This document shows, one piece after another, positions 49,565 to 60,417 of a stretch of 64,000 nt of DNA. The notes under the pieces are model-generated. The model saw nothing but the letters and a program-made list of their open reading frames with translations. It had not been told where the DNA came from and searched no databases. This stretch comes from Solobacterium sp. (GTDB lineage Bacteria; Bacillota_I; Bacilli_A; Erysipelotrichales; Erysipelotrichaceae), in NCBI GenBank assembly GCA_017941735.1, contig JAGAVW010000025.1:1-64000 (forward strand), read 5' to 3'. The position numbers and the translations under genes are program-made. How positions within the stretch are numbered: the stretch's first letter is position 1; each line of letters begins with the position of its first letter.

Positions 49565-49783
49565 ATGGGAAAACAGGACGTCATTGAAATGGATGGCATC
49601 GTGGAGGATACTCTCCCTAACGCCAACTTCAAGGTGAAACTTCAGAATGGAATGGAGATTCGTGCTCACGTTGCTGGTAAAATCCGTATGAATTACATTC
49701 GCATTTTACCAGGCGATCGGGTCACCGTCGAAATTTCACCTTATGATTTAACACGTGGGCGCATAACATATCGGCATAAATAA
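49565..49783 (+). CDS. infA: Translation initiation factor IF-1
   Basis: 72 aa OB-fold protein that sits in the A site of the 30S subunit during initiation. [28 protein letters not shown] (in part: [14 protein letters not shown]), [27 protein letters not shown] (in part: [16 protein letters not shown]) are canonical. A second, diverged IF-1-like gene lies at 60.06 kb. RBS AAAGAGAG is modest. Confidence 0.98.
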
Positions 49784-59830: not shown

Positions 59831-59858
59831 TGAGGGAGCAATATCCCTCATTTTTTTT
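59831..59858 (+). terminator. Terminator after the hydrolase gene
   Basis: TGAGGGA (59831-59837), loop GCAATA, TCCCTCA (59844-59850), T-run of eight. A promoter-like TTGCAT (59798-59803)...TAATAT (59820-59825) pair with 16-base spacer lies just before it, which may be coincidence. A second weak hairpin CGTCGTC/GATGACG is at 59873-59891. Confidence 0.88.
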
Positions 59859-59949: not shown

Positions 59950-60055
59950 ATGGCAAAAAGCAAATATATTATTGCCATACTTATAATCTATATCGCATAT
60001 AACAATAAGAATAGATGCTATGATAAAAATGATAATAGTTATGGAGGATTTACTT
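59950..60055 (+). promoter_or_regulatory. Probable promoter and operator of the IF-1-like gene
   Basis: Perfect inverted repeat ATGGCAA (59950-59956) / TTGCCAT (59972-59978) lies just before TATAAT (59982-59987), i.e. over the expected -35 region. A leader of about 60 nt ends in the strong RBS GGAGG (60043-60047). The rest of the 330-base spacer from 59726 holds the terminators already listed. Confidence 0.5.
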
Positions 60056-60337
60056 ATGGCATTAAACGAAAAAAATATACTGAGCGATGAAGAATTAGAT
60101 CATGTTTCTGGTGGTGCAGGAGAAAATGGATATGTTGAAATAAACGGAACTGTAATCGAGGTTTTACCTAATAGTGGTTTTACCGTTCAATTAGATAATG
60201 GTGAAGTTATAACAGCTTATATGTCTGGAGTTTTAAGAATGAATTATGTTCGTATATTTGTTGGTGATCGTGTGACTGTAAAACGCGGAATTAGTGATGG
60301 TTCTAGCGCAAGGGTTACATATAAATTCAAAGCTTAA
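60056..60337 (+). CDS. IF-1-like OB-fold protein with double-glycine leader
   Basis: Protein of 93 aa joining two unlike parts. Residues 1-20 (MALNEKNILSDEELDHVSGG) look like a class II bacteriocin leader, LSxEEL-x2-V-x-GG, cut after Gly20 by peptidase-containing ABC exporters. Residues 25-92 align with the infA product of this window, by hand about 31 of 67 identical, including LPN, NG, RMNY-R and GDRVTV. The C-terminal YDLTRGRI of IF-1, which touches 16S rRNA, is replaced by SDGSSARV. I chose the ATG at 60056 because GGAGG is 8 bases before it; a longer frame from 60020 has none. No exporter, immunity gene or modification enzyme is within view. Function unknown. Confidence 0.85.
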   Translation: MALNEKNILSDEELDHVSGGAGENGYVEINGTVIEVLPNSGFTVQLDNGEVITAYMSGVLRMNYVRIFVGDRVTVKRGISDGSSARVTYKFKA

Positions 60338-60380: not shown

Positions 60381-60417
60381 AGCACAGGATTTGATAGGTG
60401 TTTTACCTGTGCTTTTG
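60381..60417 (+). terminator. Terminator after the IF-1-like gene
   Basis: AGCACAGG (60381-60388) / CCTGTGCT (60406-60413), 17-base loop, TTTTG. The remaining spacer to 60617 shows no other clear feature. Confidence 0.75.

Follow-up and report, generated by a model that had tools for sequence, protein, structure and literature searches.

The window, a stretch of 64 000 nucleotides of a Solobacterium genome (contig JAGAVW010000025.1), carries two genes of the IF-1 family on the forward strand (table 1). One is the canonical infA; the other, designated P0001, codes for an IF-1 paralogue fused to a double-glycine (GG) leader. The open reading frame of P0001 has exactly the position, length and sequence ascribed to it in the initial annotation of this DNA. 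The frame is favoured by coding statistics (+0.19 per codon, against −0.46 to −0.95 for the other tested frames and +0.14 for infA). A longer version starting at ATG 60020 has an open frame and no comparable ribosome-binding site. A terminator-like hairpin separates the promoter from the upstream gene, and P0001 probably forms a transcription unit of its own.

Table 1. Features of P0001, its flanks and the infA paralogue in the window.
Feature	Position	Strand	Basis
P0001, GG-leader IF-1 fusion gene, 93 aa	60056..60337, stop included	+	open reading frame, profiles, coding statistics
Leader MALNEKNILSDEELDHVSGG, ends in SGG, predicted cleavage after G20	60056..60115	+	TIGR01847, position matrix, lineage consensus
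Predicted mature protein, 73 aa, 7.9 kDa, OB-fold IF-1 core	60116..60334	+	PF01176, TIGR00008, AlphaFold model
Ribosome-binding site GGAGG, 8 nt ahead of ATG 60056	60043..60047	+	sequence
ECF-type promoter-like site TGCCA-N16-CGCATA, 56 nt 5' of the start codon	59973..59999	+	−35 element and spacing as at other GG genes
Possible terminator: hairpin with a T-rich stretch after it	60381..60413	+	weak: −12 kcal/mol, z −1.97
Terminator-like hairpin, located between promoter and upstream gene	59831..59850	+	
Canonical infA, comparison paralogue without leader, ribosomal-protein region	49565..49783	+	

The double-glycine leader of P0001

The presence of a GG leader, as originally proposed, is borne out by two kinds of score. 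Taken alone, the leader matches TIGR01847 with 18.5 bits (cut-off 15.7). A position matrix built from 60 distinct leaders, all from other species, gives it 32.5 bits, compared with a training-set average of 31.0 and a best score of 0.96 bits among 2057 control ORFs, from which a second copy of P0001 itself was excluded. On this matrix, 10 million random 16-mers score 18.5 bits at most and 50 000 shuffles all stay below the P0001 leader, which exceeds chance expectation.

The leader fits the lineage consensus L-[ST]-D-E-E-L-[ED]-x-[VI]-S-G-G. The leader set comprises 71 GG-leader proteins of the window's genome and its genus, gathered partly by a regular expression in which the hydrophobic positions and the GG are fixed, and by a profile of the window genome's own leaders; P0001 also matches at positions −11 to −8, −6 and −3, which the regular expression leaves free. 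Judged by the profile of its own lineage, the N-terminal extension belongs with ordinary GG leaders and is not unrelated to them. A Nif11-like fusion, one of the readings first suggested, has to be abandoned, and the leader was likewise rejected as an NHLP leader: alone, it scores 12 bits against TIGR03793, for which the cut-off is 50.9.

An NHLM exporter, a GG-leader repertoire and a shared promoter motif

The genome of the window (G000) was searched for a C39 exporter and contains one C39 peptidase, at G000:C58:11898–14078. It is an NHLM ABC1 protein (TIGR03796, 908.6 bits, cut-off 853.3), in which the Cys, His and Asp motifs of the peptidase are present by eye (ECGAAC, NHFVVL and NDPA). The ABC2 partner directly adjoins it on its 3' side (TIGR03797, 728.9 bits, cut-off 709.4), and a short HlyD-like protein with a partial match to TIGR03794 is encoded ahead of it. 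With a GG leader and a C39 exporter in one genome, the processing of P0001 foreseen in the initial annotation is upheld as a prediction. The P0001 gene does not adjoin the exporter genes. Downstream of ABC2 lie a 66-aa ORF, which contains LLDDAALSFATGG, and then an ECF sigma factor gene; an ECF-type sigma gene also adjoins the NHLM operon in G021. The 66-aa ORF (L042:16302–16529, on G000:C58, approximate) has its own promoter site, and its product may act as a cargo, as a chaperone or as an anti-sigma factor.

The definition of NHLM exporters involved TOMM and lanthipeptide clusters (PMC2887384), a context that would suit a RiPP-like precursor whose GG part is also recognized by a modifying enzyme and whose core is modified before export. 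We give this reading hardly any credence: neither near the exporter of this genome nor in the related NHLM loci read was a RiPP modification enzyme noticed, and the core of P0001 is a folded domain with zero cysteines.

Beside P0001, the genome encodes at least nine further GG-leader mini-proteins, with cores that are zinc-ribbon-like, S1-like (weak, E 0.02) or of unknown fold. The protein with the S1-like OB domain (L047:8508–8840, G000:C10) is possibly a second translation-type OB cargo, given a weak match. Related species have, among other cores, many zinc ribbons, families that look helical and a thioredoxin with CGPC. The thioredoxin (L144:588–965, G032:C284; PF00085, 5e-16), which has a TGGA-N16-CGTATA promoter, appears to be a second housekeeping-type fold serving as GG-leader cargo. 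The same genome carries four tandem GG-leader paralogues whose zinc-ribbon-like cores are similar and whose leaders have diverged (L143:618–1870, G032:C261). Directly 3' of an NHLM ABC2 gene, one protein has two successive GG motifs followed by a CxxC...H core (L190:8352–8789, G025:C323). Six genomes (G021, G032, G009, G010, G044 and G063) have 12–21 GG-leader matches each at E 0.2, possibly unusually large repertoires.

Three or more GG leaders are found in 14 of the 18 genus genomes with an NHLM-type C39 exporter versus 1 of the 52 without (Fisher 2e-10, kinship ignored), as counted with a leader model trained on the window genome's own leaders. The other NHLM-positive genomes have one GG match (three genomes) or none (one genome). 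The sole NHLM-negative genome with at least three leaders, G027, whose completeness is 70 per cent, contains a gene similar in length to ABC2. GG genes adjoin NHLM exporter genes in G001, G025 and G009.

The GG genes also share a promoter motif. The word CGTATA occurs within 250 nt upstream of 31 of the 71 GG genes versus 18 of 337 other ORFs (resampled null mean 2.4, maximum 8), with a −35 element 16 nt ahead of it, which is TGGA in most species and TGCCA in the genome of the window. In the DNA analysed from related species, TGGA-N15..17-CGTATA has 24 sites, of which 20 stand ahead of GG genes and a further three ahead of a small ORF at NHLM loci; most of this DNA was fetched around GG or NHLM genes, a bias in favour of such counts. 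Genome-wide, TGCCA-N15..17-CGYATA has 10 sites in G000, versus 6 for the reversed pattern. All four TGCCA-N16-CGTATA sites of this genome precede GG-motif genes, at 21–35 nt; they are the gene of the S1-like protein, that of a zinc-ribbon protein, the 66-aa ORF ahead of the ECF gene and, on contig C21, the gene of a 95-aa GG-leader zinc-ribbon protein (L228, G000:C21:59388 onward). The last was found only via the promoter motif, having been missed by leader searches. At P0001, the −10 element is CGCATA, one base off CGTATA, with the −35 element and the spacing unchanged; since the other two N16-CGCATA sites of the genome fall within genes, the P0001 site is weaker evidence than the motif overall. 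From the type of motif and the gene neighbourhood, we infer that the GG genes would be under the control of an ECF sigma factor, with which the ECF-type sigma gene at the NHLM operon of G021 agrees. P0001 is one member of a large, probably co-regulated set of GG-leader mini-proteins, not an isolated oddity.

The IF-1 core and the distribution of the fusion

IF-1 is a near-universal cytoplasmic translation factor. The IF-1 paralogy of P0001, originally seen by hand alignment, is confirmed by two profiles: residues 28–90 match PF01176 with 55.2 bits (cut-off 30.2) and the protein matches TIGR00008, the infA equivalog, with 67.5 bits (cut-off 61.15). It is 45 per cent identical to the canonical infA product over 71 residues, and the solved structures closest to it in sequence are all IF-1; the core has no bacteriocin-core match in Pfam or NCBIfam. 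An AlphaFold model of modest confidence (mean pLDDT 65), built from three sequences and with the leader disordered, aligns with the IF-1 structure 4ql5 at a TMt of 0.87 (by target length), and its best PDB matches are IF-1, with TMt up to 0.90.

Conservation of the core was judged against 51 distinct other IF-1 sequences. Among the 39 positions conserved in at least 90 per cent of IF-1s, P0001 keeps 22, including R41, R46, G50, D51 and R66, and has changed 17, including K39, P59, Y60, L62, G65 and R70, all invariant in the 51 other sequences. The branch leading to P0001 measures about 1.0 substitutions per site, versus at most 0.22 for every other IF-1. In contacts of IF-1 with the 30S subunit, K39 and M42 touch G530, R41 and R46 touch A1492/A1493, and H35, Y60, R64 and R66 face uS12 (PMC10913371). 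Of these contact residues, R41, R46 and R66 are kept in P0001 and K39, Y60 and R64 are lost. The A-site loop (IF-1 residues 38–47, which inserts at A1492/A1493) is largely kept as GVLRMNYVRI, with R41, M42, N43, Y44 and R46 retained.

A second loop had been singled out in the initial annotation as altered and as the contact with 16S rRNA. It is indeed altered (YDLTRGRI to SDGSSARV), but it is not the main 16S contact; Y60, R64 and R66 of IF-1 belong to this loop and face uS12 (PMC10913371). Overall, P0001 mostly retains the decoding-site loop of IF-1 and has a changed other face. To judge from sequence and model, the core is most likely a captured, fast-evolved IF-1 that has kept the OB fold and lost part of the ribosome-contact surface.

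The retained A-site loop, together with R41, R46 and R66, makes some binding of P0001 to the 30S subunit possible. It would fit a cytoplasmic IF-1 variant with an uncleaved extension, acting on the cell's own ribosomes, for example as a stress-induced modulator of initiation, and a stress factor would suit ECF control. We consider such a variant unlikely, given a near-consensus GG leader that is common to unrelated cores and linked to the NHLM exporter, the changes at otherwise invariant residues and the length of the branch.

The GG-leader IF-1 fusion is known from one draft genome only. The survey of genomes suggested at the outset covered 273 genomes of the family, 316 of the order and a sample of 392 of the phylum, plus a set of relatives, and found the fusion nowhere else; such searches would catch an IF-1 with a similar leader, and a strongly diverged version less surely. 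A phage or plasmid origin was considered and rejected, the three most extended matches there being, when read out, ordinary IF-1s without a GG leader; a scan of viral contigs found no relative. Nor was an orthologue found at the same locus: beside 11 related copies of the downstream gene, up to 1.5 kb of flank contains neither P0001 nor the upstream hydrolase, the closest of these copies (G011) beginning at a contig end.

Second IF-1 copies in G037, G047, G066, G068, G075 and G124 lack a leader. A second, leaderless IF-1 type, shorter by one residue (DAIQIDGVVTDIMPNAFKVEL), occurs in some relatives, at L050–L053 (G068, G037, G047 and G066) and at L059–L066; further species of the genus yielded this shorter type alone. 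In the tree, P0001 is placed among IF-1s from the order's second family and not with those of its own genus (support 0.74, on a very long branch), and the core may have arisen by duplication or by transfer.

Restriction to a single genome would be expected of a decaying or chance fusion, that is, a recent functionless accident or an assembly error. We hold this to be very unlikely: the frame is intact, codon use is normal, the gene has a ribosome-binding site, its own promoter-like site and a near-consensus leader, and 22 of the 39 highly conserved IF-1 positions survive despite the long branch. The gene also lies in the interior of a 98.5-kb contig, 38 kb from its nearer end.

Interpretation and comparison with known systems

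P0001 is, in our judgement, quite probably a cargo of an ECF-controlled NHLM export regulon, with a core derived from a duplicated or acquired, fast-evolved IF-1. The ECF sigma factor encoded beside the NHLM exporter would activate small GG-leader genes scattered over the genome, and the NHLM C39 peptidase/ABC transporter would cleave each leader after Gly-Gly and export the core. After duplication or acquisition, rapid evolution would have kept the OB fold of IF-1 and removed part of its ribosome-contact surface, turning a cytoplasmic translation factor into a probably secreted 73-aa protein. Computed support comes from the leader, the IF-1 homology and fold, the exporter, the co-occurrence and the shared promoter motif; ECF control, leader cleavage and export are deduced. 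By analogy with the family, the product would be cleaved after G20 and exported as a protein of 73 aa and 7.9 kDa. This size fits C39 export, because CvaAB, a different C39 exporter (microcin V), accepts unrelated cargos limited mainly by length, carrying 26–66 aa well and 116 aa poorly (PMC10231218).

Our leading guess for the role of secreted P0001 outside the cell is an interbacterial or envelope-related one. A bolder version, which we consider rather doubtful, makes P0001 a natural secreted mimic of IF-1: taken up by neighbouring bacteria, it would act on their ribosomes, with the 30S decoding-site loop preserved and other contacts gone. On this view, a single ECF-controlled NHLM exporter would have drawn its secreted effectors, P0001 among them, from a range of housekeeping-type folds (IF-1, thioredoxin, S1-like, zinc ribbons).

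The putative export of P0001 as NHLM cargo suggests that GG-leader export may recruit ready-made folded domains, and the case offers a direct genomic model for secreted proteins arising from housekeeping genes. The ECF-type promoter motif predicts members of the regulon and revealed one that leader searches had missed, and the role of NHLM exporters in this lineage becomes testable. GG-leader export via an NHLM C39 transporter is known; IF-1 as its putative cargo is without precedent found. In the open literature searched, no paper pairs IF-1 with an export leader, and the literature on NHLM with sigma factors and on GG leaders on known folds reports no such system.

Like bacterial IF-1 (infA; PF01176, TIGR00008), P0001 has an OB-fold core above both cut-offs with R41, M42, N43, Y44 and R46 kept; unlike it, P0001 has a GG leader, lies outside the ribosomal operon on a long branch and lacks K39, P59, Y60, L62, R64 and G65, in a genome that retains a normal infA. 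With GG-leader bacteriocins and microcins (TIGR01847, PF10439), it shares the leader residues L(−12), L(−7), V(−4), G(−2) and G(−1), a C39 exporter in the genome and the size of the precursor; it differs in a core that is a translation factor without a bacteriocin-core match and in a gene located away from the exporter.

The exporter resembles the NHLM export system (TIGR03794/03796/03797; Haft et al. 2010, PMC2887384) in that ABC1 and ABC2 are above cut-off and adjacent and a short HlyD-like protein is present. The cargo leaders here are short GG leaders and not nitrile-hydratase-like (TIGR03793), no modification enzymes were noticed and an ECF sigma factor is linked.

A synthetic 18-residue peptide from the β3–β4 loop of IF-1 inhibits bacterial growth, membrane effects not being excluded by its authors (PMC10913371). 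P0001 keeps most of the homologous loop, but the peptide is a designed synthetic one and not a natural secreted protein; it makes an antibacterial role for P0001 conceivable and proves nothing for it. Small GG-motif proteins are also found in Synechococcus elongatus, where a C39 peptidase transporter, PteB, assists the secretion of EbfG1–4, proteins of 9–10 kDa (PMC4997328). Unlike P0001 and its relatives, the EbfG proteins have mature parts without a known domain, with no IF-1 or thioredoxin cores, and a role in biofilm formation (PMC4997328); C39-exported GG-motif proteins thus need not be antibiotics.
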